DNA from: Sclerodactyla briareus
Taxonomy: Eukaryota > Echinodermata > Holothuroidea > Dendrochirotida > Sclerodactylidae
DNA length: 64,000 nt
NCBI GenBank assembly: GCA_026419785.1
Contig: JAODTK010000278.1
Coordinates: 62,001-126,000, forward strand
Direction: 5' to 3'
Shown: one piece after another, positions 5,343 through 64,000 of the stretch
Numbering within the stretch: the first letter of the stretch is position 1
Layout of the letters: each line of letters starts with the position of its first letter
Position numbers and translations under genes: made by a program
Notes under the pieces: model-generated
What the model saw: only the letters and a program-made list of their open reading frames with translations
What the model was told of the DNA's origin: nothing
The model's database searches: none

Positions 5343-5631
5343 GGCCATGGGCGTTCTAATGTCGCCAACCTATACGGCGATGAAGTTGCGTTTCTCCCAG
5401 TTATCTACGTATCCGTCCCCAACGAAGGGGTCGATCCGATAATATCAACCTCTGAACTCAGCGGGTCGACTGTGGACTTTGCGAACGGCGAGCCTCTCAT
5501 AGCCTTCGTCGAGATTGTCCAAGGATTCTATCCGGTTACCCGAGCGAAAGTCACTGCGATAATCGTACACACCGGACGCCCAACCAGGTCTCCTAATTCC
5601 GATCAAGATGATCTGTACGACACTGGAGCGG
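5343..5631 (+). CDS. CLCA-family exon, C-terminal beta-sandwich region
   Basis: This is an internal exon of a calcium-activated chloride channel regulator gene. It starts after a strong acceptor (CTTCTACCAG) and ends G|GTGATG. The 96 codons are open throughout and include PVTRAKVTAIIVHTG and end in LYDTGAG, matching the family segment 'PILxAxVTALIE...LELLDNGAG'. The next exon supplies ADITKDDG, so the junction reproduces the family's GAGADxTKDDG motif with correct phase (one base plus two). CLCA proteins are secreted or membrane-tethered, self-cleaving regulators of calcium-activated chloride currents; that role is known from vertebrates and is not shown here. This exon has no frame break and is one of the best-supported coding segments in the window. 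Confidence 0.88.
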
Positions 5632-6360
5632 GTGATGACTTTTAACACTCACATACTAGGTCTGAAACCTGAATATTCCGGACACCTGGGTAAGAAACGG
5701 ACATGCTTCTCGATGAACGTAACCTAGTAACACGATTAATAGAACTTTTTCGCGGAACTAATGCAAGGAATTACTGACTCCAGCGAAATGCCGATTACGA
5801 GTGAGTACTCACGAAAAAATGGCTGAATAGGGATTTAGACTCGCTTTTGACAGTACCCTTTCATTGCATGTTGCTCCAAGCATCGGAACTTGTGATAGCG
5901 CTGGTAGCATGGAACTGCATATAGATCATACATCAGTTACGTAACTGCATCAGTGTGAGTTTGTCCGCTTTCTAGCCAGGTTCTATATCGTCTGTCAGCG
6001 AGGTGACGGCCTGGGAAATCTTCAAAACCTTCTTGAATTCATCATTTTAAAAAGTCGATCGATCTACAATATTCTTGTACACACCCTACTTGAACATTTG
6101 AGTGCATTTCCTTTGTATTTTGCTATTTGGAATCACCGAAAAATTGACGAATTCTCCTAAGTGTCCGTCACTGTCGGGGACAAGTATATATCGCGGGTGT
6201 TAGCTAGGTTGCTACTAGTCATTTGGGTAATAATTCAACTGTTTTTTGTACAAATGTGCTAACTAGATTAATGTCCAACGAAGAACAAAGAAATACAATG
6301 GTGCAAATAGTTCACTGAACTGTTAATTATAGCGATAGTTAAGTCCTAGAAGCTGATGGA
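5632..6360. other. CLCA intron, unique-looking part
   Basis: This is AT-rich intron DNA between the 5,343 exon and the LINE fragment. I see no motif or reading frame that I can support. It ends at the short repeat-like tail (TTAGTTTAGTTTAG) that closes the LINE copy. Confidence 0.5.
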
Positions 6361-6371
6361 ACAGGAACGAT

Positions 6372-7960
6372 TAGTTTAGTTTAGTGAAAAAGGGTCAAGA
6401 AGGACAAAATCCTCATGAGAGACCCCGAAGCCACAGCATCCAAAAAGAGAATAACAACCCAGATGCTTGAAGAATTCGCCCACAATTCTTGAAAAACAAA
6501 TCAAGAGTCAAGACCGTTCTTGAACGCATTCACACTCTTTGAAAGAACAATATCTTCAGGAGCCTATTTCCGAATTCCGAATTTCCGAATGTCCAATCTA
6601 CAGCATTTACCACGAAGCTTGAGGCAATGACCCCTATCGGTGATAACTCTGGAAAATTAAAAGAAATGGTGTATGGAAAGGCCCTCGAATCCATTAAAAA
6701 ATTTGGAAACCTGAATCAAATCACCTCGAATTTGTCTCAGCTTCATCGAAATTAGACCAAGACGCCTCAATCTTATCCTCGTAAGGACTAAATCTCTAAG
6801 ACAGTGGATTTATCTAGTGGCCCTCCGCTGAACGTTTTCAATTACCTGCTTGTCTTGCGAGAAATGTGAATTCCATACTTGGACAGAATACTTCAGGTGT
6901 AGTCTCACCAGCTGCTTAAGAGCCCGACAACAATATCTTTATCAAGGAAACTGACGTGACGTCTGATCAGCAAGAATTCAGTTACCTTGTCTCGCATCTT
7001 CAGCACACGGCTTAGAAGGTTTCAAAGAAGAATCGGAATGAACACCGCGAGTTCCTTTCCTGAATTCACCTGATGAATAGTTTGCTCATTTAACTTGAAA
7101 GAGGCGTTGCGAATGTGGAAACCAACATGCATAACCGGCATTGAAAAAACATTGCCAATCGAAAGACCATTTGGATCGGATGATCCCTTTGGACAATTGC
7201 AACATCATAGTTCGAAGCAACCTCCCAATACAACTTGGTATCGTCCGCAAACTTCCTAACTCTGGAATGCACCGAATTTTCGAGATCGTGAATATACGCC
7301 AGAAAAAGTGAAAGCCCAAAGAACCGATCCTTGGGGAACACCTCTAGTGACCTTTTGCCAAGGAGACGAACACCCATCAAGGACACTCTTTGTTCCCTAT
7401 TGAGAAACCACTGACGAATCCACTCACGGACATTCCCTCTAATGCCAAAACTTTTCAATTTAAACAAGAGACGCTCATGAAGAACCTTGTCAAAAGCTTT
7501 TTGGAAGTCCAGGAAAACTATACCAACAGCACTGCTGTTGCCAACTGCACTAGTAATATCATCCATAAATTCTAAGGGAGTATTCCCAACACTAACGATT
7601 TTTTCCTGAAACCATGCTGCGAACCCCGAATTAGATTATTCTCATTGAAAAAATCGACAATATGATCCCGAATTATGGATTCTAACACCTTACAGACAAC
7701 ACTAGTAAGACTCACTGGCCTGTAATTACAAGGAAGAGACCGGTGACCTTTCTTGAAAATTGGAGAAACATTTGCTCTACTCCAATCATACGGAACAACA
7801 CCTTCTTGCAAGGTTCATTGAAAATAATAGCTAATGGAACGGACAACTGGTCGGCAAAAGATTTCAACAAGAAGGGGTTAACTCCGTCCGGACCAGGAGC
7901 TTTACCACTTTTTAACTTCTGCAGTTTCTTGAATTCTGCAGCGACCTAAATTAAGTCTCT
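6372..7960 (-). mobile_element. Non-LTR retrotransposon (CR1/L2-like), 5'-truncated
   Basis: The minus strand encodes part of a LINE ORF2 reverse transcriptase. From the 5' side it shows the KSGKAPGPDGV motif (about 7,900), CNYRPVSLTSVVCKVLE (about 7,700), VFLDFQKAFDKV (about 7,500) and the catalytic KFADDTKLYWEV block (about 7,220). Further downstream, frame-shifted pieces (LVRLHLKYSVQVW, near 6,880) match the usual C-terminal 'LVRPHLEYAVQVW' segment. Frames change several times and stops interrupt it, so it is inactive. There is no endonuclease domain: the copy begins abruptly near 7,960, typical 5' truncation. On its own strand it ends in a short CTAAA-type tandem tail at about 6,372-6,386, as in CR1-like elements. 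It lies antisense inside a CLCA intron. Confidence 0.85.
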
Positions 7961-8603
7961 TACGAAACATAAACAACGGGTGGGGGACGGGGGGACATGT
8001 CCCCCCACTTTTAGACCATGCTCCGATTAACTTTAACATTCTCACACATTAAAATTTTGAAAATGTGGCCATATCCCCCCCCCCCCCCTTTGAGAGGGTG
8101 GTGACGTATATATTATATATATTTATTGAAATTGCCAGTAATGTGAAGTTTAAATCTAGTCAATGTTCATATAAAATTAACTGCTGAATTTTATATGCAT
8201 CTTTTCGATTAGACTTTCTTCAAACACACATCTTGATAAGTACATGGAGTACATTGGTGTATGGATGGTTCGCAACCAATGTGTTTGGAAAATTGTCTAA
8301 TCATTCACACTCCAGTGAGTTTCATTGATGACGTTTTTGGAAGGAAAGTAAAAAAAGTTTGAGCCCCTCGCTGCAGGAGGAGGAGGGGGTACTGCCTGAA
8401 CAATAGTTTCTCTTTCTTCCTCAGTCTCTCGTGCTTGCCTTGTTCCCAGCGAGAAGGCATTTTTTCAGGTTTTATTCACTCGATTTTACCTGTCTACGTT
8501 TCTATTTTCGAGTATTTTCTGTTCGGAAGAGCAGACACTTTATCACTACCAAACAAACAAACAAATGAAACTAAGTGTAAGTTTATGTCATTTCCCCCCG
8601 TAG
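7961..8603. other. CLCA intron with G/C homopolymer pair
   Basis: This stretch has no supportable exon. It holds a G-rich block (7,980-8,005), a C-run (8,068-8,080) and AT-rich DNA up to the acceptor CCCCGTAG before the next CLCA exon. Confidence 0.5.
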
Positions 8604-8806
8604 GTGCTGATATAACCAAAGACGATGGGATATATTCACGATATTTCACCAACTTCACCGGAGTCGGATTTTACGGTATAAAAATAAATATCGAGAGTGA
8701 TGAAGTCCTGTCACTTGAACGGCAAAAGTCGCCCGCCTGCCATTCTCATACACACAAGCGTATGTTGAACCCGATGAATTGCTGAAGGGGAACATACCGA
8801 CTATAG
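8604..8806 (+). CDS. CLCA-family exon with KDDGIYSRYF motif
   Basis: The exon begins after CCCCCCGTAG and ends at a consensus donor (TATAG|GTAAGT). Its first part reads ADITKDDGIYSRYFTNFTG and then GFYGIKINIES, almost identical to the vertebrate CLCA block 'GADATKDDGVYSRYF...GRYSVKV'. The last part is family-like only in a second frame (SYTQAYVEPDELL), which corresponds to the conserved 'ALYIPGYVENG' segment. The frame change lies between about 8,715 and 8,735, near a short A run. In the first frame a stop would appear before the donor. I take this as one exon with a one-base indel, either a sequence error or a real lesion. Confidence 0.85.
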
Positions 8807-9649
8807 GTAAGTACAGCATCAATATTGAACGATTTCAATACATGACGACACGACACTTGAGACTTTGGTAAAATACGGAAAAAACTGTTCCTTTTCGTTG
8901 ATTCAATACTGAAAATGATACTTGGGTTGGATGATTGTTGTAGATTTTTTTATTCACAACCCTAATAGACGCGAGACATACCTTGCCTTCTACTGTTGTG
9001 TACAGCCAACATCCGAATATTGTAACTGCGTTCCTCGTGTCGGGAGAGCGTCATATCAAACTCAGCTACCTCGAAACACACAGCTTAATCTATTCCACAT
9101 TTCCAACTTACCCATATGTTGACCATGCACCGCACCCACGCGCCATTGAAACATCTGGCAATAACACAAAGTCCGGGTTGGCCACCTAATCGCTCTTTTT
9201 CTTGCCAGCCCTCTGATCTCTAAATGTAGGCCTATTTTTAAAATGATAACTGAACAATAATTGAAATAAACAAAACAAATCCACATCTTTGGTGATTTCC
9301 ACGTGATTCCATTTTACCTGGCTACGAAATTTGGAATCGATCAGTCGTTTGAATCAGCACACTAGTGACAACTAGTGAAAAGGTGAGAAGAACAGGTAAC
9401 ATTACGCCAGCCCCAGAATCTGTTTTTCACCCTATATTTCAAAATTTTGGCCATAACTTAGAGAAAAATATGTGATTTGTGACTATTCTGGTATTTGCGA
9501 AATATCACGATTCTACGAAAGAGACAGTCACATTTTTGAAAAAATCTGACGGACACGCAAACGGACATCTTTTCGAGGGCACCTCATTGCTGGACCACTC
9601 AACACATATGGGGTACTCCATCATGGGGTACCCTTCAGTAGATATTCCT

Positions 9650-10010
9650 TGACAACCACATTTACAATAGCAACGTGCTATGGAAACCAGCAACCGTAAA
9701 TAAAGATGGGATCTTTGGTAACAATGCAGTGAGGTAGGGCATTCCAATACGAAGTTTCCTCGGCACAAAAAACAACAAAATACTTGTAGCAGTCTTTGTC
9801 TGTAGATATGGTGGAGTAGGAATCCGGATGCTTATGTCGCGATTGACGCTGGGCAGGCTGTAGAAGATCTCATATAGGCATGGACAATGGCATCGCCGCC
9901 TTGCCGAAAACCGCCACAAGAGGTCCTACATTATTGTCACCAATTATTCTCGTCTGCAGTAAGAGGTCGCCATAAGAGAGAACTCGGAATATTAAGGAAC
10001 TTGAGCGATA
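9650..10010 (-). mobile_element. LINE ORF2 C-terminal remnant
   Basis: On the minus strand one frame reads KHPDSYSTISTDKDCYKYF and then SYWNALPHCI. This follows the familiar end of non-LTR retrotransposon ORF2 proteins, 'YxxxRTxxYKYSFFPRTIxxWNxLP'. Upstream frames are broken, and no reverse transcriptase core remains nearby. It is a short, decayed copy inside the CLCA intron. The assignment rests on the C-terminal pattern alone. Confidence 0.45.
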
Positions 10011-10829
10011 CTATTGCGAGAAGCCGATACCCGTTTCACCACCGCGATCATCACTTATCCTCAATGACTTTGTCGAATCAGCTGTATACGAGCTGTATGA
10101 GTCGACTCATGGGGGCCCGGGGAGGACTTGGATCGTATTAGAATATATAGCTCCATGATTAGACCTCGAGAGTCTCCTTCTGACGACACGCGCGCGTGCT
10201 TAGTTAACCCAGCAGAAAGGTTTAATTGTGACGGTGTGCTGTACAGGACAATGTCATACGCAGAACACACATCAAGACTGTACAATTCCACCTCTGTGAT
10301 ATCTTGAGGGACATGACCATGTTTCTATAGACAGCTGTCTCCACACCATCCGGTCACTCAACCGGATCAAATTCCTGTCAGGAAGTCAGGATAGGGAAAG
10401 CTATACGGGTACGTAATTTGTCGAATAAGGTTGCCAAACTTGAACTCATGTCTTGGAGGGGGCGATCATTATCCACCAATTCTCCGACCTTTCCACGGGT
10501 CACAGTTAGACGCCGGTAAGCTATCATTGCCAACATTTTCTAATGCGTACAGTGTCTTCTTCTGTCCAACCTTTCAAAGCTCCTCGCGAATTAGTTTAAG
10601 ATCAGATAAAGAATAGCAATTACTATGTATAACAACTAATTATATCTCCGCGACACTGGAAGTGTCCGGGGTATATTATGGTTTTGGGTGTGTAGCCGCC
10701 GCCACCGCCGCCGCAGGCTCTGCCGCCGCCGGAAACGTTAGCGCAATAACTCTTTAACGCTTCATCCGATTGATCTGCAACTTGATAGGCATGTCCGCCG
10801 TATTAGAAATCTCGGATGAGTTCGAAAGT

Positions 10830-11180
10830 GGGCATCACTGCAATGCTGGGAGCCGCTAATTTGCATAATTTACGCGAGTTACTCGGATTTGAATAGAACT
10901 TGGTGGGTAGGGACTATAGTTGATCCCGAAAAGTTTGGAGGTCATTTCGGAGTCATCGGAGGTCAAATTTGGATAAGTTAGGCGTTTGACCAAACTTTGT
11001 CAGATTTGAACGAAACTTGGTGGATGGAGACTACATTTGTTCCTGACAAAGTCAAAGGTCATTTCAAGGTCCTCGTGGGTCAAATTTGCATAACTTTTGT
11101 CACTTCCATAAATTGCGACAAAACTTGGTGGATGAAGGCTATCTTAGTTTCTGACCAAAATAGAGGTCTTCATGGGTGTT
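10830..11180 (+). repeat. AGGTCA-containing imperfect tandem repeat
   Basis: Three imperfect units of about 90-110 bases recur: 'GAAACTTGGTGGATGGAGACTA' type openings (near 10,898, 11,010 and 11,120) followed by AAAGGTCATTT and GGTCAAATTTG blocks. The same sentence-like arrangement (TGGATGAAG..., then GGTCAAAGGTCAT) recurs at 38.2-39.2 kb and 49.8-50.0 kb. A near-perfect direct repeat, AAGTCAAAGGTCA, lies at 11,049-11,061. No coding capacity is visible. Confidence 0.6.
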
Positions 11181-11639
11181 AGATACTTCTTCCCAATGAT
11201 TGCTCAAAAGCGGGGATACACACGTGGGCGGATTACCCGCCTACATATGTCTAGTTTTGCTCTTGAACTTGAAGAAATGTTTCGAGAAGTCTGTAAAAAT
11301 GAAATATGCAAATCAAAGGTCGTAACTCTGGCTTACGAACCACCTCCCCCCTCACAATCTGTGGAGTATGTCGTTGTTTTTCATTTGTATTTGTGTTGTC
11401 CATCTTCTACACTTGCGTCATGTATCTTTTTTCGCAATTTTATAGGGTTTATATTTCCAGAGATTTTTTCTTGTGAAAGATCCATGCCACCTTCCGACAA
11501 GGTGACATACAATAGGTTAATAAGTATCCATATGCAAATAACTCTAGAGGACAAAACCGGTGCCCAACCGTAAATGTGGTCGATCAGTTCCCTCAGCAAA
11601 ATGTTCAACACGATTCTTGACGTGTTTTGCTTATCATAG

Positions 11640-11889
11640 ATGGCGAACCCGTTCTTCTTCCGGGAATGCCCGTACCGGAGCCGAAGGGGGTCACCTGCTC
11701 CCAAGTTTACCAGAGGAATTTCAGGAGGGTCCAGTCAGGTGCAAGAAACACCCCAGAATTGGCAACCCGGGGATGACATTATCGGCCCAAATAAGATCGT
11801 AGACTTGAGGGTGTCGTCATCATATTATGGAAACGGAACCGTGACGTTGGAGTTCACAGCTCCGGGAGATGATCTTGACAGCGGTAGTG
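11640..11889 (+). CDS. CLCA-family exon with fibronectin-like TAPGDD block
   Basis: The exon starts after TATCATAG and ends at AGTG|GTAAGT. In the frame that continues from the preceding exon it reads GEPVLLPGMPVPEPKGVTCS. In a second frame it reads KFTRGISGGSSQVQ, then IGPNKIVDLRVSSSYY and LEFTAPGDDLDSGS. These match the family order '...VCFSRTSSGGSF...PPxKIVDL...LxWTAPGDDxDxG'. The frame change lies near 11,700-11,710 and again looks like one missing or extra base. The final block is the start of the fibronectin-III-like C-terminal domain of CLCA proteins. Confidence 0.85.
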
Positions 11890-13555
11890 GTAAGTATGGC
11901 TTTGTAGCCAACATTCGATCCCCACCTCATGGGGTATTTTCAATTCTACACAAAGTTCTTGTTCTTTTTTTTGTTCTTTTGGCGGGGTGGAGGGGGTGGG
12001 GGACAACGACGGTTTCGGCAAAACGATCATTCATCCAATAAAACAGCGGGGTGTTTTTTGTTTTTTCATTTAGACCTTCAGCCTTTTTGCCCCATCCATT
12101 TCAAACATTGATTTTTTTCTTCATCTGATGCCTTTGGATGGGGCGATAAGTTTTGTAAAAATGATCAAGGAGCCTCTTCAAACCTCTTTCCAGATGGCAA
12201 GAACACAAAATACCCATAAGCCGTCTGTGCATCATCGTTAAGAACTTTATTCACTCTCTTTAGTGCGCGTTCTCGGTGAAGGGAGTGGAGAAAGGGAAGG
12301 CTCGTTCCAGTAATATGATGAGCATAATGAATGACTGAGTATCATACAATTATCCCTCCGTCGTGTGAGCCGTCTGCCTCCCCGTTGTTTCGAGCACTCC
12401 ATCCATCTATCCGTCTGTCGCGTCTGTCCGTCCGTCTGTCTGTATGTCTGTCTATCTATCTATTCATCCAGACTGCCTTAAATGCACAAAGACGCAAATG
12501 TAAATTACAGTTGTGGTGAGACGTGGTTCAGTAGGTACCTAGTAACGATATTATATTGTACAAATTCTCAGTGTATACGGTATCAGCTTAGGAGACAATA
12601 TTTGTTTATTTTGCTGACTTTCATTACATTGGCATTGCCCCGCACATCCTATTTCAACAGCTGCTGTTTGTTACTTGCAAATGGCAGTTCCTATCAATAA
12701 GGGGACCAATTAATGACATGGCATTTTTGGCCTGAAATAAAAGACTCTGGCTTTATGTATGTTTTTCTCAATTCCTATTAAGTTTTCTGAACTAGTCATT
12801 AAAATGTGTGTTCAGAACACAAATTGCTATATACACATCCTCAGTATGACCCACAAATGAGAAATATGTGTTCCGCGTGTGAACGGGACACCGTGGTGTC
12901 CCCTTTACACATGAAACAGAACATTTTTACTGTATTATCTGTGTATTTGTATAATATATACTATTTATGGATATTATCTAGGGTTCCAGGTAATTTGAAC
13001 ACTCTGGAACTAAAGATCAAGTGATTGAACTAACACCAAAATTTACACGTGAAATCTCTCTACTGCTGGGAGCCTCATACTAAAACATGATAACTGTTAC
13101 ATTCATAACATAGGCTATATTATGGCGATGATTAGCATGTTATCAACTGCTTCTGGAGAGAAACGAGAGTCTTGAAACTGAAAATAGGTTATAAATAGGT
13201 AACATTCCGAAATGCTTGGGAAAAGATGCTATAGGTTAATAGGTATCATACCGAAATGATTGGAAAATATGTCATGATTTTGGCATTAAAATATGGCATA
13301 TTTCAGGTGTATTTCTCTTAAAAAAAATCGCTAAATCTGAATAATGCCAGAAAAGTTGGCAATATGTAGCTATTCAATAGCATAATTGTGACCAACTAAC
13401 ATATGTTTATTGACCAGGTGAATTAAGCCAACACTGCAGTTGCCTTTTGAAGGTGTTATATGCCACTGGTATCCTTATAAATAGAAACAGCCAAATGCTA
13501 ACTCGACGCTACTTGTCAGCTTTGATTCAAATGTCAATATTTAATTTCATTACAG
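11890..13555. other. CLCA last intron
   Basis: This is AT-rich intron DNA with a (GTCT)n/(CTAT)n microsatellite at about 12,400-12,475 (CCGTCTGTCTGTATGTCTGT). No exon is seen until the acceptor TTCATTACAG. Confidence 0.55.
12400..12475 (+). repeat. Tetranucleotide microsatellite
   Basis: This is an imperfect (GTCT/GTCC)n run grading into (CTAT)n in a CLCA intron. It is likely length-variable between individuals. Confidence 0.85.
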
Positions 13556-14094
13556 CATCCTACTACGTGATCCGAATGTCCTCTATAGCCGCCGAATTGC
13601 AGAATAATTACAGCTCTATTGCACCGATCAACGAGTCTGTCATTCTGGACGGCGATACCTCATCCCCTGGTTCGTTTGGGGATCATCAACTCTTTACTCT
13701 AGTCGTCCCCGTGCCAAATGGCCAGCCGATCGTATCATACACGTTCGCTATGCACGCTGTAGACGAGGCGGATAACGAGGGGGAGGTGTCGAATCTCGCC
13801 CAGGCGACCCTGAGGGAGTATATACCTCCTCCTCTGACCACCCCCTCTCCAACTACAGAGGAGACATCTACCAACAAGCCAACCAATCATGAACCAGAGG
13901 AGGCGAACCTTCTACCCCTCTGGATTGTGTTGGGGGTAATAGGGGCGGCGATGCTGGGGATTCCCCTAGGGTATGTTTTGTATCGCTTTTTCAATCGTAG
14001 GGAAAAGAGGTCGCCCGACACAGAGGAAGGGGAAGGAATGATTTCCGGAGGTAGATGGTTTGTCAAAGCCGCGGCACCTCCAACCGCTGTGTGA
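13556..14094 (+). CDS. CLCA-family terminal exon with stalk and membrane anchor
   Basis: This is the last coding exon, opening after TTCATTACAG and ending at TGA (14,092-14,094). The joined codon gives ASYYVIRMSS, matching 'xxYIIRIS' of CLCA proteins. Further on, AMHAVDEADNEGEVSNLAQA matches the conserved 'AIQAVDxxxxxSEISNIARV'. Then come a proline/threonine-rich stalk (IPPPLTTPSPTTEETSTNKP), one hydrophobic segment (LWIVLGVIGAAMLGIPLGYV), a basic stop-transfer stretch (RFFNRREKR) and a short cytoplasmic tail rich in Glu and Gly. This predicts a type I membrane form like vertebrate CLCA2 rather than a fully secreted one. The frame is intact for about 180 codons. A possible ATTAAA polyadenylation signal follows at 14,111. 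Confidence 0.9.
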
Positions 14095-18574: not shown

Positions 18575-21500
18575 TCATCGACGTTATAATGAAAAGTCGC
18601 TATGCTCCGACAAGTATGAGAATGTTCTAGCCCATAAGTGCAACATATCCTCTTGTGCCGGCACTCGCTACCATGGAGGTGTCAGGGATGATGAGGGTAT
18701 CGCCTCATGGTGATGCCTTCTCTCTTGAAACCGCGGGCATATCCGGAAGTGACGTACACACCGATGTTATACCAGAAGGCGCATATGCCGACCATAATAA
18801 ATATGGTGCGACCCCCTTAAGTGTCAACATATCGATCTTGTGCCGCACTCCGCTACCGTGAGGTTAATAGGGTGGGGAGGGGTAGCCTCATGGCGAGCCA
18901 TCTTCCCTTGAAACGCGTCGGCTTATCCGAAGTGACGTACACATCGACGTTATACTGTAAATGCGCTTTTGATTCCGACCGTAACTAATAGGTGCTACCA
19001 ATTAGGTGCCACATATCGATCTTGTGCCGGCACGTGCTTCATGGGGATTAGGGGATGGGAGGGTATCGCCTCATCGCGGTGCCATCTCCCTTGCAACCGT
19101 CGGGCATTTCGGAAGTGACGTACAACCACCGATATTATACCAAAAAGCGCTTTATTTCCCGACTGAATCAATATGGTGCACCCCCTTCAAGTGCAACATT
19201 GATTCTGTGCCGCACATAGCTGCCCTGGAAGGTTGTAGGTGGTGTAGGGGTATCGCCTCATGGGGTGTCATCTCCCTTGAACCCGTCGTCATATCCGGAA
19301 ACTGACGTACAACTCGACGTTTATAGACAAGCCTTTGTTTCCGACGTATGAAAATATGATGCTACCCCCTGTTCAAGTGCAATTATCGATCGTGTCCTGG
19401 CACTCTCTACCGGGAGGGTGTGGGTCTGGGGATGGAGAGGGTATCGCCTCATGGTGAGGCCTTCTCTCTTGATACCGTGCGGCCTATCCGGAGACGTACG
19501 AACATCGATGTTAACCGTAAGTGCGCTAATATTCCGATCGTAATTAATGTGGTGCTACCCCTTAAGTGCACCATACGATCCTGTGCGGCACTCACTTCCA
19601 TGGAGGGTATAGGGGTGGGGAGGGTACGCCTCATGGCGCTGCCATTTCCCTTGAAACCGTCAGGCATAGCTGGGAGTGACGTACAACATCGACGTTATAA
19701 TGAAAAGCGCTTTGTTCCGACCGTATGAAAATATGGTGTCTTCTACCCGCTTAAGTGCAGCATCTCGACTTATGCCGGCACTCACTAGCATGGGGGTGTA
19801 GGGCATGGGCAGGGCTATCGCCTCATGGCGCTGCCATTTCCCTTGAAACCGTCGGGAATATCCGGAAGTACGTCCAACACGAGTTCTACCAAATGCGCTA
19901 TATTCCGACCTAATACATATGGTGCTACCCCTTAAGTGCCCATATCGATCTTGTGACGGCAATCGCTACGTGGGGGTATAGGGGATGGGCAGGGCTATCG
20001 CCTCATGGCGCTGCCATTTCCCTTGAAACCGTCAGGCATATCCGGAAGTGACGTACAGACACCGGTGATACAAAAAGCGCTATATTCCGACCATAATAAA
20101 ATATGGGGCTAACCCCTTAAGGCAACATATCGATCTTGTGCAGGAACTCGCTACCGTGGGGGTATTAGGGTTGGGGAGGGGTATCGCCTAGGCGATGCCA
20201 TTTCTCTTGAAACCGTCGGGCTTATCAGGGAAGTGACGTACAACATCGACGTTATAATGAAAAGCGCTTTGTTCCGACCGTAACGAATATGGTGATTTTT
20301 ACAATTTAAGGGGGGGCAACACGATCGGTCTTGTGCCGGCAATGATACCAGGGAGGGAGTAGGGGTGGGAGGAGGTATGTCTAATGGTGGTGCCATCTCC
20401 CTTGAAACCGCGGGAATTATCGGATGACGTACCAACATCGATGTTATACCAAAAAGCGCTTTATTCCGACTGTAATAATAGGGTGTACCCCTCCCAAGTG
20501 CAACATTACGATCCTGTGCCGTCAAGTAACCATGGAAGGTGTAGGTGGTGGGGAGGGTTAATGCATCATGGCGGTACCATCTCACTTGAAACCGTCGGGC
20601 ATTTCCGGAAATGACGTACAACATCGACGTTATAATGAAAAGCGCTTTGTTCCGACAGTAATAAATATGATGCTACCCCTTCAAGTGCAAATTATCGATC
20701 GTGTGCTGGAACTCGATAGACCATGGAGGGTGCGGGGTATGGGGCTGTGGAAGAGGGGTATCGCCTCATGGTGCGGCTTCTCTCTTGATCCGAGGGGATA
20801 TCCGGAGGGACAGTCACAAACATCGATGTTATACCGGAAAGCGCTATATTCCGACAGGTAATAAATATGGTGCACCCCTTAGTGCAAATATCGATCCTGT
20901 GCCGGCAATCACTACAATGGAGGGTATAGGGTGGGGAGGGTAAGCTCAGGGCGAGCCATCCCCTTTGAAAACCGTGCAGGCCCTAGCTGGAAGTGACGTA
21001 CAACATCGAAATTATACCAAAAAGCGCAATTTTCCGACCGTAATAAACGTGGTGCTACCCCTTTAAGTGGCCATATCTATCTTGTGCCGCACTCGCTCCA
21101 TGGAGGGAGTAGGGGTTGGGAGGAGTATCTTCTCCATGGTGTGCCATCTCCCTTGCAACCGTCGGCATATTCGGAAGTTGCGTACAAACATCGGATGTTA
21201 TACCAAAAAGCGCTTTATTCCGACTGTATAATATGTCTACCCCTTCAAGTGCAACATTACGATCCTGTGTCCGTCACTAGCTACCAACCCCTGGAGGGTG
21301 TGGTGGGGGGGGGGTTATCGCCTCATGGCGGGGCCATCTCCCTTGAACCGTCGGGCATATCCGGAAATGACGTGCAAACATCGACGTTATAATGACAAGA
21401 GCTTTGCGCTTCCGACAGTATGAGAATAATCGATCGTGTGCTGGCACTCGCTACCGATGGAGGGTGTAGGGGTCTGGGGATGGAGAGGGGTATCGCCTCA

Positions 21501-22605
21501 TGGTGAGGCCTTCTCTCTTGATACCGTCGGCATATCCGGAGACGTACAAACTCCGAATGTTATACCAGAAGCGCTATATTCCGAACCATAATAAATATGG
21601 TGGCTACCCCCTTAGGCAAAATCTCGATCTGTGGCCGGCACTCACTGCCATGGCGGGTATAGGGGATGGGGGGAAGTATCGTCTCATGGTGGTGCATCTC
21701 CCTGAAACCGTCGGCATATTCGGAGTGACGTACAAACAATCGAATGTTTCCCAAAAAGCGCTTTAATTCCGACTGTAATAAATAGGGTGCTACCCCTTCA
21801 AGTGCAACATTACGACCTGTGCCGTACACTACTACCATGGAGGGTGTAGGTGGATGGGGGGGTTATCGCCTCATGGCGGGGCCATCTCCCTTGAACCCTG
21901 TCGGCATATCCGGAAATGACGTGCAAACATCGACGTTATAATGCAAAGCGCTTTGCTCCGACAGTATGAGATTATCGATCGTAGCTGGCACTCGTACCAT
22001 TGAGGGTGTAGGGGTTCCTGGGTATGGAGTGGTGTGTATCGCCTCATGTGAGGGGGCCTTTTCTCTCTTGAATACAGTCGGGCATATCCGAGACGTACAA
22101 CATCGATGTTACCGGCAAGCGCTATATTCCGACCATAATAAATATGGTTCTACCCCTTAATGTCACATATCGATCCTGTGCCGGCACTCACTGCCATGAG
22201 GGTATAGGGTGGGGAGGGGCACGCCTCTGGCGGTGCTAAAAAAAAATCCCTCCCTTGAAACCGTCATGCATATTTGGAAAGTTGGCGTCACAACATCGCG
22301 TTTATAATGAAAAGCTATATGTTCCGACCGAATGAAATATTATGCTACCCCTTCAAGTGCAACATTCGTCCTGTGCCGTCTATTCGCTACCATGGAGGTG
22401 TATCGGGCTTGAGGAGGGGGGGGGGGGTGTAGGCGAGGGGGGGGGGGGGGGTATCGCCTCATGGCGATGTCATTTCCCTTGAAACCGTCGAGCATATCCG
22501 GAAGTGACGTAAACGAAACTCGATGTTTCTAACAAAGCGCTATTTCGACGTACAACTAATCGACTTTTGCCGGCACTCGCGTACCCTGAGGGTGCATCTG
22601 CGTTG
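18575..22605 (+). repeat. Satellite array, ~21 units of ~187 bp, higher-order structure
   Basis: Each unit contains 'GTATCGCCTCATGG', 'CCCTTGAAACCGTCGGGCAT', 'GGAAGTGACGTACAACATCG', 'AAAAGCGCTTTATTCCGACC' and 'CTTGTGCCGGCACTCGCTAC'. The first of these recurs at about 18,697, 18,888, 19,062, 19,249, 19,440, 19,627, 19,815, 20,000, 20,180, 20,369, 20,565, 20,759, 20,943, 21,127, 21,316, 21,489, 21,676, 21,865, 22,037, 22,213 and 22,453, giving a mean spacing near 188. Units fall into at least four classes in a repeated order (see findings). Divergence includes many one-base indels. Translations over the array are not genes. A degenerate starting unit lies just before 18,697. Confidence 0.93.
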
Positions 22606-28735: not shown

Positions 28736-31700
28736 GTTTTGGCCTCTGTGTAGATGGTTGTGCCTTTTCACGACGCGTCCGCAGTGCCGCCGGTATTCCT
28801 GTGCAGTTATCGGGAAATACCTGACCTATTCTACTAATGGGCGCCTGATAGTGGGAAGCTCTGAAAGTAAACAGTGCCCTCTATAATGTGTATTCCATTT
28901 TTCTTTGGGTTTTGTCTTCAAGAAAATGTTTCAAAAATGAAACCCTCAAATGGGAGGTTTTTGACCTAGGGGGTAGGTGGAAGCCTCGTCGTGGAACTTT
29001 CACTTGGACCCCCCCCCCCCCCCCCCCCCGTCGGGGACTCGTGACCCCCCGTCGGGAAATCCTGGCGCCACCATGGCTTGGGTTATAACCCCGGGATCTG
29101 TAGGTGCCATGGGAGTAGTTTGTACTATACCCGTTTTCGTGTTTGCTTGATCGCAAGATGAGTCATCGAATCTTGAACAAGACTATTTTACCATCCGGCA
29201 AACCGCGTTCGCTTCGCTTTTAGACCGCTTGCTTTTGTAAGCATGTGTGAATCAGCCATAAGATTCCATGATTTCTAGCGTATTGTTTGTACAACATCCG
29301 TACTTTTTCATTGGCTGGTCATTCTCACTCCAGTGATCTTTTCCCAACGTTTTCGAGGACTAAAAGAGATTGGCCGAACTTGAAGAGTGTATTCATAATT
29401 TGTTGGATTGATTTGAGCCAGAATTCGATCGAATAAAATCATTCGTTCAGCCATGAATCAATATAGTAATGACTATTATAATAAACATGATTATCCGGAT
29501 TCTTCCCATCAATTTCTAATGATAATAAAAATTCCGGAACATATATATCAGCTGGCAACATCCAGCAGAGAAGCCCGATATCAACATCTGTTTCACAAGC
29601 ACCAGAGCCGAAATTTCAGCCATGTTGTTATTCACGATTTTCAGGTAAGGGGAATTGTCTCTGGTGCTTCCAGGGGAATATGACCCTATCGTCCCAGCCG
29701 GTTAATTCTCTTACTCAACACTTATCCTACAGGTAAACTAGTCCATTTGATCGCACTACACTTCGGAGCCTAACGTCACGACACGTAACGTTGGAAGCTC
29801 ACGTATAGGCTATAATTAACGTAGTTATTTTAACTATTATACTGTGCAAGTTGTCTCTGTACTGATTGATCGTCATGTTTCCTCGAATATACCACTGCAC
29901 CACTTAGCTAGTCAAAAACAGAAATGAGCCCTTCACAATTGCTGGTTGACTTGGCGCCTGTGATATTAACCAATCATGAAGGCTTCCCCACTGATGAAGC
30001 AGGGCAGTTCCTATTTTCAAGTCCATCAGTGGGTTCCTGCCAAGCCTCTTTGCTTATTGAAGCCGGTGGACATTTTTTTTTTTTTTTTTTTTTTTCTTTT
30101 GAATTATGCAAAATGAAATATTTTTATGTTTAGCGTCCCTGCCAGCCTCGTTTTTTGGGGGGATTCTGACTTTGTTTTCTCATTCCGGCCAAAACACTTC
30201 TTTGTTTTTCGAAAAAATATTTTGAAAGTCTAACACTGTGGACATCAGTTGACGAAAGAACCTTGAAGCAGGTTGGTTAGTAGACCCTGTAGAACTGTAG
30301 ACTAAAAAGGATGAGAAAAAACAAAACACTAAATCCTTTTTAAAATAGTATTGTTTCTTGTTATTCACTTCTCATAAGAAATTGCAAGAATTCTGATTGA
30401 ATCCGATTTCCCAACTCAATGAACACTTTTTTGGTTTTTGGGCCAATATGCGTTCCATGGAGGCCTTACCTCCCACGGTTTTATCATGGTTAGGCTGCGT
30501 TGTCGGCGATCAGAAAACGGCTCATTTGAGTTGGAAATCCGGCGATTTCAATCAGATTTCTGCAATTTTCACGTTAGTAACATACCAAGAACCACTATCA
30601 GAATTTAGTGGCCATCACCCACAAATGAGTAGAATATGGTGGATTTTCTAGCCTTGCTTCATTGACATGTAACACAAGTGCCCATATGAATTATTTCGGG
30701 GCACCTTGCTTCATAGGCAATGTGCGGAATTGACACCATAGGGGCACTCTGTGTGTTTAGCTGTCAATGTAGCTCGCCATTTTGAATTAAAGTTTTAGTT
30801 TTGCAATGCCGTATATGGCTAGGGCAAACCACCATTTTACGCTATTATTAAGTATTATTATTGTGCACATCAGTTAATGACTATTCCAAATTTGCACGCA
30901 ACTCAATATAATACCCTTTGCTTCGGAATTTCAATTTCTCTATGTATGGTCTGGATCCCACCTTAATTTCAGTATCTCACCCACCCATAATTCAAAATTT
31001 CAGTTTTCCAGATGTTTTGAATTATTGGCTGGGATTCAATCTTCATAATCGCTCTCCATTGTTTGACTAATACTGTTTTCGTTGGGACTTTTGTGGATTC
31101 CATGGATTTTGTGATACTCCCTGTTTCCATTAAGCTCCATATCCTTTGTTAAGACTGTGATGTTTCTTTGATAACGATTCATTACAGGCCACTGCAGGAT
31201 GGAACTAATGAGAAGCATGTGCACTTGTGTCCCACGAGCCAGTATGTCTGGCCCATGAGAAGCTTGTTGAAACAACAAGTAGTGAAGTATATGGCCCATG
31301 AGTAGCCTTCTTGGCTGGCCCTCCAGTCACTCACCCCACACCACAGAGGAAAACAAGTTTGGTTGTTCTTTGGCCTTTTGACTAGAGCTTTATAAAAGGA
31401 AACCGATGGTGGTTGAATGAGGAAAATCGGTTGTTGCATTCTCAAATTCAAATGGCGAAATAGGATCTTAAACTACATATTTTGTGTTGGGAAACCTACT
31501 CTTTGGCCCAAAATGCCTAATTCCCATTTTCAGGTTCCTTCTATTTTGTAAATAAATGTTGTCATGGCCCTAAATGACAATAACAGACCAGATTTATATC
31601 AAATAACCCATTCCCAAAGAACAGGGTGGATACAAGTCTAGTTGGAAGGCAGAAGACATTCAAAGATGTTGATGGTGCCTTTTCTGAGTGATGGCACTAG

Positions 31701-44884: not shown

Positions 44885-45250
44885 CAACAGTACGTATGGT
44901 TTGACGTATTGCATATAAGACTGTATATGTTGGTAAGAGCATCCAATTTCCTGCTTGAATGCCTCAGGCAGTGGTGGAATTTCCATCCAACTCACAGTAC
45001 GTATGGTTTGACGTATTGCATATAAGACTGTATATGTTGGTAAGAGCATCTAATTTACTGCTTGAATGCCTCAGGCACTGGTGGAATTTCCATCCAACTC
45101 ACAGTACGTAATGTTTGACGTATTGCATATAAGACTGTATATGTTGGTAAGAGCATCCAATTTCCTGCTTGAATGCCTCAGGCACTGGTGGATTACTGGT
45201 CTATCGAGCATTCAACTCACAGTAAACGTAATGTTTGAACAGTTTGGCTA
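44885..45250 (+). repeat. 107-bp tandem repeat, best-preserved block
   Basis: CAGTAC starts at 44,888, 44,995 and 45,102, a period of exactly 107, with a fourth, altered copy at 45,220. Each unit carries GTACGTA, TTTGACGTATTGCATATAAG, TTGGTAAGAGCATC, CCTGCTTGAATGCCTCAGGC and GTGGAATTTCCATCCAACTC. The first three units are nearly identical, so the amplification is recent. There is no coding capacity. Confidence 0.93.
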
Positions 45251-52809: not shown

Positions 52810-52908
52810 AGAGCCATGGTCAACCAGAGTGCCACAATCAAGACCTGGATGCAGAGTCTAGCGATGAGGATGAGGATCCGCAGGGAAATGCTGGGGCCCC
52901 CAAGAAAG
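52810..52908 (+). CDS. SRPRA: SRPRA acidic-motif exon
   Basis: The exon lies between ACCTTGCAG and AAAG|GTAAAT. It reads SHGQPECHNQDLDAESSDED and continues DPQGNAGAPKKG. Animal SRPRA proteins carry an acidic 'QDLDxxSSDDE' motif followed by a Ser/Lys-rich spacer just before the NG domain, and this exon reproduces it. The start could be 52,810 or, two bases later, 52,812, using the overlapping AGAG. The exon ends in phase 1. The next expected coding part (the first helices of the N domain, around 'GLVGSKxLxxEDM') is not visible before 61,432 and is either missing from the sequence or too altered for me to see. Confidence 0.78.
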
Positions 52909-55900
52909 GTAAATGTGGTCCTCCCAACATTGGCCATCGAGGTGATGAATGGCAGGAGTCAGTCAAATGGTGACATTACATTCACATGTTTATATCAACA
53001 CACTGACTGATGCAACCTTTTCCATTCAACTTTTCATATTTTCACATTCCTTCTCGAAATATTTGATAATTATCCAACACACCATCCTTCAATGTAATGA
53101 ATCAGGGTAGAACATTGCAATCCCCCATAGCTACGGTCTTTTGTGATCTGATTCTGGCCGAGGCCTACATAGCCTCCAGCCCCCTCCTCATCACTCTGTC
53201 CCCACTGTCTATTCATCTTGTGTCAAAGGTCAACTGCAGGATCAATTTTGAAAAGTAATATGATAGCAGCGTGAAAAACTAATTTACCATCTAACCTGGC
53301 ATTCATACAGCTTCCTGTTCCGGAGTTAGGCTTTTGACTGTTTTGTGTATTGTATTGTGTAATATTGACATGCATCCCCTCATTTATGTCCATCTGCCCA
53401 ACCCTGTGCAGGTATCCTTTTTATTTTCTCAAAATTTTTAAAAATTAAATCTTTTTATTTTTTAGTTTTTTGGTTTTTGGGTGGTTTTGGGTAGGCTTGC
53501 TATAAGACAGTGAGCTTATGCATAATGTTGATTACTACTTATCACAATCAAAACAATACAATACATAAGATATTCTTTGCTTTGTTCAAATGTGGTGTCA
53601 TGCATTTTCAACGCACGATGGGGGATCTCTCTTCTCCCTAATTTCTCTTGTAAATGGACCAAGCCTTATTCAGCGTCAAACGCCATCGTCACCTTACCCT
53701 CCTCGCATTCACCGTTATTCACACACACTTTCCTTCCACTTGAAAAATTAGTCAAAGATTCACCACAATTTGAAAACAATTGAACAAATTCACCGACTGT
53801 TAATTTGTCCATCGCGCGTCACCCAGTGGACTAATTCCACGTAAGTCAAAGATTACAATCACAGAAAAGTGTTATGCCGAAAGATTTCATCCACCACCTC
53901 TATGAAAATAAAATTGCACTCATAAATTATAATGCCCAGAATTGTTCTTCATCGAGAGGCACACTTGATAGGTGATTCTACATGCGGCAGCTATGAAGTT
54001 GAAGTTTTTACTCGTAAAGACAGCCTAAAAAGCTAGGTGTTGACGTAAGTGCTTTTTGACCCAGGCCTTGTGATTCCTTACGACTTCCAGAAATGGAAAG
54101 GTCAATTGAATGAAATGGAGTGGTGGTCTGGACAGTGTGCCACCTTTACCCCTGAGGATAACCATTAGCCAGAGTATAACAGTCGGCCAAACCCCGGGAA
54201 ATTCCAAGGTTAAGGGCAGTCCAGTCTTCTGTCTTTAATACTACTAAAAGGCCCAGTGGACAGCCATATTGTTTGGTATCAGAGTTCACCTCGCCCCAGT
54301 TTTAATCCTAATTGATGTTTAACTCAAATCACCTCCAAGTAGCACTAATTATGTAATGCATGTACCATAGTACTTCATTCTTTATAAATCATAATCATGT
54401 ACTGGTGCTCATGTCCAAGTTGGATTGTCCTGGTTTGTGTTTTTTTCTTTTGTCTTTATGAATGCACCGAGGTGAGTTGCCCCTAGAGCACGTCCCATAG
54501 CATACACCTCATTTTGAAATAAAGGTTGTCTCTTCTCACTGGTCTCCCTTGGGCGCGTGGAGAGCAATGCCTGACCCAGACCATGTTGTTTTGGTCGCAT
54601 AGCACCGCAAGCTGGTTGGGATGGAACTCATGTACAATCTTTTAAGGAGATGACTAATAATTGGAAATCTTCTCCATTATCATTGTACTTGGCATTATCA
54701 TTCTCATCTTCTTGACAGCACATGACATGGAAACATGCGGAGAAACTTAGATCCCTCACGTGAACACGTTTGATTGTTGTACATATTTGTACTCTCAAGA
54801 TATCATGAGTGAAGTATAATTTCTTTATAAAATTCTTCACAGCCGCGCCACAACTACTGGAACCTTCACCCTTTTTTCCTTTACAATCCAAACAAGAGTG
54901 CCAATGGCACGTAGCTCACCCTGCCAATATATCAGTACTGATAGATGCTATTACAAGTACATGTGTTTTGATTGTCATTGCACTGTGCATCATACTGATT
55001 CGTGTATTAAATGTCATACTCTTTAATCATAATAGTTAAAAAAAATAATAATAGACTGTTCTTTGTCCCACACTTTGTTATATTTATGTACAAGAAACAT
55101 GTTTTCACCACACTGGTGGATAATGGATGGATCGTTTGCCCAGAAGGGCCTTTTTGGCCAATGACCCCTAGATGACCTTTGACCTCACAGTTTCCCTGAA
55201 CACCCCATAGGTACCATTGGTCACTGATAATTATACCTGATCCAGTTTCATGAAACATCCTATTGAAACTGTATAAGCTTGGTGCAGTTTTTAACCAAAT
55301 GGTCAAAATTGATGCTGAACACTATGTAGTACCATTGCCAATGATAATAATGACCAGCCATCATGATCACTCCAATTCAATCTGTGGGAGAAGAAGTTTT
55401 TGACTTTTTGAACCGCCAAATGACCTTAACTAGCCGGACTATAACACCAATCCTGCTTAAAGTGAATGGGCGTAGGTGACGTGGTAGCGGTGTGGGTTAT
55501 ATAAAGAACATCCAAGATAACCGGCAGTTCCTTTTAGTGATTCGTTTCGCTAGTCGCTCCTTCAATGAAAATGACTTCCAAGCTTAGTGTGTGTTGCCTA
55601 TTCACAAAATGCTAATCAATTGTGGATATGATAAGCAATCATGCAATTTGGGCTAGCAACGGCTATCAATCAATTAATATTGAACCCTGGATAACGGTAA
55701 TAACACTGGTGTACTTCCACGAAGTTAGAACATCGCGGCAGGCAATTAATTTTGATTTGTGTATCATGTCGCCGTCCCTGCTTCCCGGGGCTGGCTGCGC
55801 TGGATAATGATTTGCTTAAGCCTGTCTCAGGCGGAGGCATTCTGCGCTGTTGGCAGTATTTTCTGAGAATCAATTCTATCAATTCTTGAACATGAATCGT

Positions 55901-60380: not shown

Positions 60381-61171
60381 TGTTTGCCAGACCCGCAGTT
60401 GCCTTTGAAGCGTTTTATCGCAAGACCCCTGATCCTGTTTCTTCTTCAACTCTCCGCTCCCCCCCCAAGCAAACAGAAGTCCTCGCTATGGTCTTTTCAA
60501 CAATGTGCATAGCCGGTTGGGGTCCAAGACACTCAGTAAGGTGACATGGCCCAGTCCTGGATAAACTGAGGGCCATCTCTTGGTGAGTCCTAATTTTCAG
60601 GGAGGAGGAGTCTTTGTTGGGGCTGGGGATCCATGAGCTTACAGTACGCCCCGGCCTGGGGGTCTGGATAACGACTCGTTTGTCTGTACATCCTTCTACA
60701 GTCAGAGGGCACTGTGTCCTCGTATAGAGTCTGTCACATATCTTTCCTATTGGCAGTTACTGACGAATCTTGCATTTTGTCAATTCTGAGTTGGATAGTT
60801 TTATCCTTCCTATTTTGGGGCGTATAATCTGATGCGAGGTCCCAAAGTCCAAGAGCCCTCGTTTTTCACATATTTCACTATTTCGTGAAGAATGCTTCTT
60901 GTGGCAAATCTATTTTCACTATATATAAGATTTGTCATTGTTCTGTGTAAAGTCGTTGCAGCAGCATTATCTTTTATTTAGTTTTTCAATAGGCCTTTTC
61001 CTTTTCGTGTTGTGACAAATGTGTGCTGCACATGTGACCAATCTGTTGTCACACGGTCCTTCCCCCCTTCGAGTAGTGTGAAATGTAGAATTTGTGGTAG
61101 GAATGTAAAGTGCAAGCACAAACTGTTAAATTCGTCATGAAAACAATGGTGAAAGGTTTCACGTAATGATA
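60381..61171. other. SRPRA intron after the insertion
   Basis: No exon or element is supportable. Composition returns to AT-rich past about 60,720. Confidence 0.45.
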
Positions 61172-61287: not shown

Positions 61288-61431
61288 GACGAATGGTTGT
61301 GACAACCTCATGTTCCCATTTCACGTAGTGAAGAATGTCTTTGAAGCACTAATATTATATAAAGAATTTGTCTCGTTGCCGGAATTGTGGGTAGCAGCAC
61401 AAATTAGTTCTTTACTTTTATCCTCGCCAAG

Positions 61432-61515
61432 AACGTGGCCAAGAAATTGCTGATAAGGTTTGGTGGACTCTGGTGGGCCGAAAAGCTTGAAGGAAAGTCA
61501 TGGGAACCTTTGACC
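61432..61515 (+). CDS. SRPRA: SRPRA N-domain exon (end of helical bundle)
   Basis: The segment begins after CGCCAAG and ends at GACC|GTAAGT. Across two frames it reads NVAKKIADK, AEKLEGK and, after one missing base, MGTFD. The family reads 'KNVAADIAVQLCESVANKLEGKVMGTFS', which is the end of the N-domain four-helix bundle of SRP GTPases. The exon ends in phase 1 (C), and joining it to the 62,671 exon gives MGTF-DR-VTNVVRSG, in register with 'MGTFSTVTSTVKQAL'. Two frame disturbances (about 61,460-61,475 and 61,496) are present. The last 35 bases are also the start of a 106-bp tandem array that runs into the intron. Confidence 0.8.
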
Positions 61516-62430
61516 GTAAGTACTCTGCTGATTCAGCATTCGTTAGAATAGGATTAGATGGCTATAGGAGGCTCTTTATAGTGGCTAAGGAGCGTGAAAG
61601 GTTAGAGGGGGCCTTTGACGCATTAGAAACCCAGCAATCCACATTGAATTTATTAATAATGAGATGGTATAGGAGTCTGTGTTGGTGCCTGAAGCTCAAG
61701 GAAGAGGCATACTAGTTGAGCATTAAAAACGACTCTACTTAATTATATAGGGTAAGATGTATTAAAAGGTTTGCAAACAATCATACAGATGCCAAGAAGC
61801 TTGAGAGGGAGAGTTAAGGCGACCTTCGACGAGGAAACCACAAGCTTCACATTCATTATGATGAGATGGTTTATACAAGTTCATAATGCCAGACAGTTTG
61901 AGGGAGAGACCAGGTTACAAATTCCACCATGAGAAACTGAGACTTTACATTCACTATAATAGGAGGGTGGGATGGTTATACAAGGTTGGGAAATTATGTT
62001 TAAGAAGCTTTGAGACAGAGACAAGGCAACCTGCAACCATGAGAAACTGAGACTTTACATTCACTATAATAGGGTGGGATGGTTATACAAGGTTGGGAAA
62101 TTATGTTTAAGAAGCTTGGAGAGAGAGACCGGCAACTTGCAACAATAAGAAACCGAGACTCTACATTCACTATGATAGGGTGAAATGGTTATACAATGTT
62201 GGAGAATTATGTTTAAGAAGCTTTGAGACGCGACCCGGCAACCTGCAACCATGAGAAACTGAGACTTGCCATTCACTATAATGGGGTATGATGATATTAC
62301 CAGGTTTGTGATCAATAGCCAAGAACCTTGAAGGGGAAATTCATGGCAACCATTGATCTGCGATGCCTAGAAATCAGAGCAGCCACAATTTTCTTCACTA
62401 TTTAATGTTAATACTGGGGGAGGAGGGGGT
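61481..62430 (+). repeat. ~106-bp tandem array seeded from the SRPRA exon end
   Basis: Units begin at 61,481, 61,587, 61,692, 61,794, 61,891, 62,002, 62,109, 62,215 and 62,321 (spacings 106, 105, 102, 97, 111, 107, 106, 106). Unit 1 starts with AAAAGCTTGAAGGAAAGTCA of the SRPRA exon. Others start AAGAAGCTTGAGAGGGAGAG, AAGAAGCTTTGAGACAGAGA or, in the last, AAGAACCTTGAAGGGGAAAT followed by TCATGGCAACCATTGA. The rest of each unit contains ACATTCACTATAATAGG, GGGATGGTTATACAAGGTTG and AATTATG(T/C). Units 5-8 are more alike than units 1-4 and 9. Confidence 0.88.
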
Positions 62431-62670
62431 GAGATAATTTAGGGGGGGCTGAGAATGCTGAGACGGGTTGGTAAATTGTGCCCAATGCAACTCTCCTTAT
62501 GAATCAATGAATGGTCACCCCCCAGAGCAGTTTCAATGGTTGCCTTCCCCATTTGGAATCAGCAATGGTTTACGAAGAGGCAAACTATAGCCGTCTGTTT
62601 TAATCCGTACTTCAAGTGACCCCCTGTGCTCGTAAATTTTGAATTGAGTGAAAATCCTCCAATTTGACAG
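62431..62670. other. SRPRA intron end
   Basis: A short G-rich stretch (62,415-62,450) and unremarkable sequence lead to the acceptor AATTTGACAG at 62,661-62,670. Confidence 0.5.
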
Positions 62671-62842
62671 GTGTGACGAATGTGGTCCGCTCTGGTATGG
62701 AGGAATCTCTAGTCCAGATCCTGACCCCCCAGCGTCGCGTTGACATCCTGCGGGATGCCGTGGAGGCCAAGTCTCAGGGGCGGCCCTTCTCCATCACATT
62801 CTGTGGGGTCAACGGGGTTGGCAAGTCCACCACCTATCCACG
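62671..62842 (+). CDS. SRPRA: SRPRA exon with start of GTPase domain (P-loop)
   Basis: This is the clearest SRPRA exon. It reads VTNVVRSGMEESLVQILTPQ, RRVDILRDAVEAKSQGRPFS and ITFCGVNGVGKST, matching the family 'ESLVQILQPQRRVDMLRDIMxAxxxxRPYVVTFCGVNGVGKSTNLAKI'. GVNGVGKST is the G1 (P-loop) of the SRP-type GTPase, which binds GTP and pairs with SRP54. After GKST the frame departs; one extra A would restore the expected Asn-Leu. A possible donor is CACG|GTTCGT at 62,843. The G2-G5 motifs must lie beyond the window. Acceptor phase agrees with the 61,432 exon. Confidence 0.92.
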
Positions 62843-64000
62843 GTTCGTTAGTGGTTTTTATATTCTTCACTTTTTAGTCCTTTGGTTTTTTAGCGCAAAC
62901 CAGCTCATGCCGTTGAGCTATTGTGATCTCCGCGTGTCTTCTGTCTAATCGATCCATCTAACTATTCACCTCATTGGTGCTCTGGTGACTCTTTGGCACA
63001 TGTGCAGAATATAAGGTAATGAACTCATTAGATCTTCAGCGTAAAAATGGCTAATTAAATCGTCTAATTTGCATGATTTAGGTCAAAATTTTGAGGTTCG
63101 TCATCTGTTTTCGGAACCCTGATAGGTATGGTTTACCTTTAGTTCTGAACCGTTTTATATCATGGAATCGGTCAACTGGAGGTCAAGGTGTCCCATTTGC
63201 ATAAGTTATGCGGAATTTCAAAGTTTGCAAGATTTTTCACCAAATCACACACGGAACGTAGGTACCAGCCTATCTTTAACCTATCCAACTGGAGTCACTA
63301 AGTCATTCAGTGTGTCTATTTTGCTTGGTGTATTGAAATTTCAAAATTATCTTAAGCTTTTCTCTGTTGGAATGTAAATCAAGAAATCTGAATGCAACAC
63401 CTGGAATGCTTGTATTTTTGCATAGTGACCCTAGAGAAACACTGAATCCCGAGCACAAAGGCGAGACACGGGGGCGATCAATTTGTTCATACTCCCCCAA
63501 GTTTTGGTTCGAACCTCACAAATTATGGCAGCCTCGCTGGGCCTCCAGTCTGGTCTTGTGTTAAGACGTTGTTGACAACCCTGCTCGATTGCGCTTTCCT
63601 TGCTGTGTAAGCCTATTCACATTTATGAGGTGTGCCAGCAGTAACCTGCAGTGTTCTACAACCGTAACAACAGAAGCTGTGGTGTCAATCAAAGTGAATA
63701 TTTTTATTGCCAGACAGATAAGGTAACATACACTAAAAGAGTAGGAATAAAAAATATAATAATGTCTTAACACAAGACTAGCTCCAGTCATGAGGCAACA
63801 GCAATTCTCAAAACCTATCTAAGAATAACTTATCCCAGCACTGGTGCAATTTTTCAACTCAAACGAAGTTGGATATCTGAATGAACCTCTTCGTTATCTT
63901 TGTGTTCGTTATCCATAATTCATCATATCCAGATCTGCTTTATGGCTGGGAGAATAGTTCGGGTCCTGATCGCCGCATGCGATACATTCCGCTCGGGGGC
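62843..64000. other. SRPRA intron to window end
   Basis: No further SRPRA exon (for example the DTFRAGA block) is visible up to the end. The segment 62,990-63,290 contains weak 'GGTCAAAATTTTGAGG' and 'TAATTTGCAT' phrases reminiscent of the AGGTCA repeat family. Confidence 0.5.

Follow-up and report, generated by a model that had tools for sequence, protein, structure and literature searches.

In the human gene IFI6 (G1P3), according to the passages of PMC4526556 that deal with it, two downstream units of a minisatellite are used as splice donors, with three mRNA species; the minisatellite with multiple splice donor sites is credited to Turri et al. 1995, as cited in PMC2572611 and PMC4526556. 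A potato RdRp gene, as outlined in PMC4974935, carries a tandem duplication across its first intron and second exon which created a new intron, and intron gain by tandem duplication is among the subjects reviewed in PMC3443670. For human coding tandem repeats, the relevant part of PMC1273636 reports no splice sites coinciding with repeat-unit borders in its authors' data.

Here we describe an array in the gene for SRPRA, the SRP receptor alpha subunit, within the window, by which we mean the whole 64,000-nucleotide stretch of DNA analysed. Nine units of ~106 bp stand in tandem at about 61477-62430, the first of which takes in the 3' end of an SRPRA exon together with the GTAAGT donor. As in IFI6, an animal gene carries a tandem repeat with a splice donor as part of its units, the SRPRA array spanning both exon end and donor; unlike IFI6, where downstream units serve as donors, none of the eight downstream SRPRA units has a GT at the donor position. 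The IFI6 repeat reportedly overlaps the end of a coding exon. The array shares with the potato gene a tandem duplication over an exon-intron boundary and former exon bases which are now intronic, but where potato made a new intron, SRPRA has many copies over exon end and donor and one enlarged intron. Exon sequence has become intron sequence, as the tandem-duplication model of intron gain proposes; in that model, however, a duplicated AGGT provides donor and acceptor of the new intron, whereas the SRPRA intron begins at the donor that its exon already had and ends at an acceptor lying outside the array. The array joins these published boundary repeats and duplications, and differs from them by enlarging one intron, with the copied donors gone. 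A preliminary description had called such an arrangement unusual, which is fair, although related repeats and duplications across splice junctions are in print. Our literature search, limited to open-licence papers, found no report of an SRPRA intron array.

The SRPRA gene around the array

Protein-to-DNA searches placed SRPRA pieces on the + strand of the window. The query was a human SRPRA sequence, identical letter for letter to PDB chain 6y32_B over the stretch covering the exon of interest. With tblastn only 62673-62867 was strong (E 1e-16), the remaining pieces having E 0.026 to 7.6. Frameshift-aware alignment at the places suggested by tblastn gave six exon pieces, each of which outscored 150/150 random window pieces, and whose borders, being set by local alignment, are not exact exon borders:

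29622-29732, + strand, SRPRA exon piece
52839-52919, + strand, SRPRA exon piece
60448-60582, + strand, SRPRA exon piece
61420-61511, + strand, SRPRA exon piece
62673-62831, + strand, SRPRA exon piece
63925-63998, + strand, SRPRA exon piece

The features immediately around the array are these:

61420-61515, + strand, SRPRA exon up to the donor, residues matching human LIAKNVA...KLEGKVMGTF (frameshift-aware alignment; 61420 is not an exact 5' border, and the consensus has single-base indels)
61516-61521, + strand, predicted splice donor GTAAGT (from the sequence; phase fits the next exon at 62671)
61516-62670, + strand, predicted intron of 1155 bp, more than three quarters of which is taken up by the array (the sequence between two SRPRA exons)
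62671-62831, + strand, next SRPRA exon, with the P-loop (phmmer against SRP receptor alpha chains of known structure, lowest E 2.5e-18; no frameshift step in 53 codons)

Against human SRPRA, the piece at 61420-61511 scores 71, with 18/26 aligned codons identical and four frameshift steps, a score reached by 0/150 random window pieces (maximum 35). Plain tblastn returned only E 5.8 for this piece, and its raw translation found no match in the PDB, in both cases because the reading frame is broken. Phase is kept when the exon end at 61515 is joined to 62671. The intron opens with the exon's own donor, and its acceptor lies ~240 bp beyond the array. Pattern searches for relatives of the next exon (52 aa) gave 30 matches in viral contigs and 248 in prokaryote genome contigs, with 0 confirmed in either; the window has the appearance of animal nuclear DNA.

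The state of the reading frame bears directly on whether the locus can be trusted. Across the six pieces there are 12 frameshift steps in 203 matched codons, as might be expected if this were an SRPRA pseudogene or an assembly artefact, from which exon, donor and array would tell us nothing of a working gene. The residues between the indels are nevertheless well kept, and one 53-codon exon has no frameshift; since frequent single-base indels sit between conserved residues with a clean exon alongside, the pattern suggests consensus errors in a real gene more than a dead one. The absence of stops from the pieces is weaker evidence, the alignment penalising them. The array units, moreover, differ from one another by 9-63% and are therefore not stuttered copies of one stretch. 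We consider a pseudogene or artefact distinctly unlikely. With so noisy a consensus, exact unit lengths and reading frames are not to be pressed.

Elsewhere in the window, open frames at 5292-14094 on the + strand bear what we take to be a resemblance to calcium-activated chloride channel regulators (CLCA), with no supporting Pfam match in the four frames scanned. A reading frame at 7090-7635 on the - strand matches reverse transcriptase (Pfam RVT_1, E 4e-8), and Rfam and tRNA scans of the window returned 0 and 0.

Units of the array and their homology to the exon end

The nine units are given below with approximate borders. Where two p values follow a unit, they belong to the alignments of its exon part and its intron part, in that order, each confined to the unit's expected stretch, with a floor of 0.0005.

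61477-61583, + strand, unit 1: last 39 exon bases, donor and early intron (local alignment, profile and register tests)
61584-61685, + strand, unit 2, degenerate: p 0.009 and 0.0005; both parts align from offset 107
61686-61790, + strand, unit 3, most degenerate: p 0.036 and 0.21
61791-61887, + strand, unit 4: p 0.0005 and 0.017; both parts align from offset 314
61888-61997, + strand, unit 5: p 0.17 and 0.0035; the Tandem Repeats Finder array begins within it at 61926
61998-62104, + strand, unit 6, young core: 91% identical to unit 7; p 0.021 and 0.0005
62105-62210, + strand, unit 7, young core (MAFFT identity): p 0.047 and 0.0125
62211-62317, + strand, unit 8, young core: 85% identical to unit 6; p 0.45 and 0.17 when each part stands alone
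62318-62430, + strand, unit 9, in which the exon end is best preserved (62318-62356) and the intron part can barely be made out: p 0.0005 (score 22.5) and 0.86; profile match 62294-62401, E 0.026

Tandem Repeats Finder picks up no more than the young core, 3.4 copies of a 106-bp unit at 61926-62287, while a self-BLAST under tolerant scoring joins 61483-61829 with 62005-62356 (E 9e-11, 60% identity across 364 columns), and self-BLAST and a profile together extend the array to 61483-62401; its head-to-tail copies and a unit of tens to ~100 bases make it a minisatellite. The preliminary description's nine units of ~106 bp, the first of them straddling the SRPRA exon end and GTAAGT, are confirmed. 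In a MAFFT alignment of the nine, units 6, 7 and 8 are mutually 80-91% identical and all remaining pairs 37-66%, unit 1 being only 45-52% identical to the others. Unit spacings vary, and no frame is kept across the array.

The repeat had been said to start at 61432, with about 35 exon bases in its first unit. The latter figure is about right, ~39 being measured; the start is ~45 bp too early. The 37 exon bases at 61440-61476 are matched in 0/8 downstream units (p 0.13-0.71), and by alignment only ~39 exon bases belong to the unit, which begins near 61477. A tenth unit after 62430 and an inverted copy of unit 9 near 62530-62565, both suspected by eye, were rejected, shuffles scoring as high in 95/1000 and 789/1000 cases, respectively, under a scoring that let long alignments grow and is not sharp; an inverted-repeat search gave four pairs, none of which was the suspected inverted copy. 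The window holds two further tandem arrays: one at 18627-21966 (184-bp unit, 17.9 copies, 70% matches; Tandem Repeats Finder) and one at 44887-45192 (107-bp unit, 2.9 copies, 96% matches), the latter near the SRPRA array in period, yet without a self-BLAST match to it. An exact 33-base piece of the repeat unit had 0 matches in viral contigs.

With unit 1 so diverged from the others, and two units lacking a significant exon part, the likeness between exon and array might be put down to chance, an ordinary intronic minisatellite merely beginning near an exon. Several tests speak against this. Local alignment of exon 61438-61515 with 61540-62440 gives a score of 22, which is reached by 0/134 other window segments, 0/1000 exon shuffles and 0/500 array shuffles; its best match of all is unit 9 (62318-62356), and the earlier remark that the last unit still looks exon-like thus stands. 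Weaker controls came from exon plus intron (61438-61560), for which 1/1000 and 1/500 shuffles did as well, and from intron alone (61516-61575), with 3/1000 and 4/500. A profile trained on units 4-8 only picks out 61483-61646, a stretch that bridges exon and intron (E 1.2e-5); outside the array its top match has E 13. Exon 61438-61515 by itself is equalled by 0/2000 shuffles with a profile of units 4-9 and 1/2000 with that of units 4-8, and by 0/2000 random window pieces with either.

When the units are taken singly, the exon core (61477-61515) reaches p<0.05 in 6/8 downstream units, lying at the floor in units 4 and 9 and falling short in units 5 and 8; the intron start reaches that level in 5/8 (units 2, 4, 5, 6 and 7). 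After correction for eight tests the exon part holds in units 4 and 9 and the intron part in units 2, 5 and 6; by themselves, the exon parts of units 5 and 8 miss significance, as do the intron parts of units 3, 8 and 9. In units 2 and 4 the exon and intron alignments share a start offset, yet the offsets drift by 2-5 bases inside, and since these searches were confined to each unit's expected stretch they are not a free test of register.

Ungapped offsets were taken over the whole range. Those best matching the exon's last 39 bases are 316, 411, 523, 629, 735 and 843, one for each of units 4-9 and spaced 95-112 bp, and the five best for the intron start (521, 627, 414, 733 and 105) fall in the same register. 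Among 5000 random 39-mers, 3 were as regularly spaced and 34 had as good a best match, with 0 combining both; the borders of the 39-mer were chosen after the local-alignment result, a choice of which the local-alignment and units 4-8 profile tests are independent. Over all offsets the ungapped exon and intron match profiles are uncorrelated (r 0.007), because the best exon and intron offsets differ by 2-3 bases. The exon end and the array are homologous and in one register, and a chance resemblance is exceedingly improbable. The alignment, profile and register tests all support the claim that the founding segment of the repeat ran from the exon end through the donor into the early intron.

Donor positions and donor-like sites in the array

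The preliminary description also envisaged copied decoy donors downstream of the true one. The homologous position, however, carries GT in 0/8 downstream units, even within four bases either way. Units 2-9 there read GC or CA (in two alignments of unit 2), TA, AG, CC, AT, AT, AT and TG, the position in unit 3 being set from the period, as no clear ungapped offset emerges from its exon part.

Elsewhere in the unit there are GT sites that resemble donors. Scored with a human donor matrix, the true donor (ACC|GTAAGT) receives 5.9, and five GT sites in the array, none at the donor's place, exceed it:

61601, + strand, donor-like GT, score 6.8
61752, + strand, donor-like GT, the best, AGG|GTAAGA, score 8.7
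61967, + strand, donor-like GT, score 6.05
62074, + strand, donor-like GT, score 6.05
62429, + strand, donor-like GT, score 7.8

By the same matrix, GT sites scoring at least 4 have a density of 11.3 per kb in 61522-62672, where the window as a whole has 6.0; for those scoring at least 5 the two figures are 6.1 and 4.0. The counts for 61522-62672 include one site at the next exon's acceptor, and the excess arises in part because a motif elsewhere in the unit is itself repeated. Should the donor be skipped, the alternative C-terminal residues raised in the preliminary description would number ~66, the frame past the donor staying open (71 codons from the ATG at 61500) to a stop at 61713-61715, with further stops after; the site at 61601 precedes that first stop and the other four lie past it. 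The 74-aa frame at 61491-61712 matches 0 Pfam families. RNA folding of the array is not unusual (z +1.54; 19/20 shuffles fold at least as well).

On these motif matches, use of array donors is possible. Some transcripts might skip GTAAGT and splice from array sites, as for IFI6, so that the protein would be cut short or lengthened or the message would decay, a reading to which the five higher-scoring sites, their raised density and the open frame leading to 61601 lend some colour. Yet the homologous donor positions have lost GT throughout, the site excess is partly repetition itself, four of the five sites lie beyond the stop and the scores come from a human matrix, and we judge alternative exon ends of this kind improbable. 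It is very improbable that the array acts as a working multi-donor SRPRA exon end, in which read-through of a weak donor and splicing from stronger sites would tune the amount of intact SRP receptor.

Origin and meaning of the array

In our assessment the array is, with high probability, best explained by tandem duplication across the exon-intron boundary followed by intron growth without new splicing. About 106 bp across the SRPRA exon end (39 exon bases, the donor and ~65 intron bases) would have been duplicated in tandem by slippage or unequal exchange, and later rounds would have brought the array to nine units, with the latest growth in its middle (units 6-8). The exon part matches human SRPRA residues, which makes it old and constrained; it is ancestral and the array derived. 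Unit 1 would remain the working exon end and donor; units 2-9, intronic and without GT at the former donor place, would be removed with the intron, so that the lasting outcome is a larger intron and not new splicing. The duplication mechanism, the order of events and the splicing out of the array are all matters that we infer, and, given the five higher-scoring GT sites, the silence of the array in splicing can be put no more firmly. As the exon end is best preserved in the farthest unit, unit 9, and the youngest units stand in the middle, we likewise infer that the middle of the array turned over and the edge stayed.

The array looks like a real, though probably neutral, piece of genome history. 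An ordinary intronic minisatellite has no direction of its own; here the constrained exon tail fixes the ancestral part of the repeat and gives the array one, making it a legible trace of how an intron grew from the end of its own exon. It suggests, too, that eightfold copying of a splice donor need not leave eight donors.
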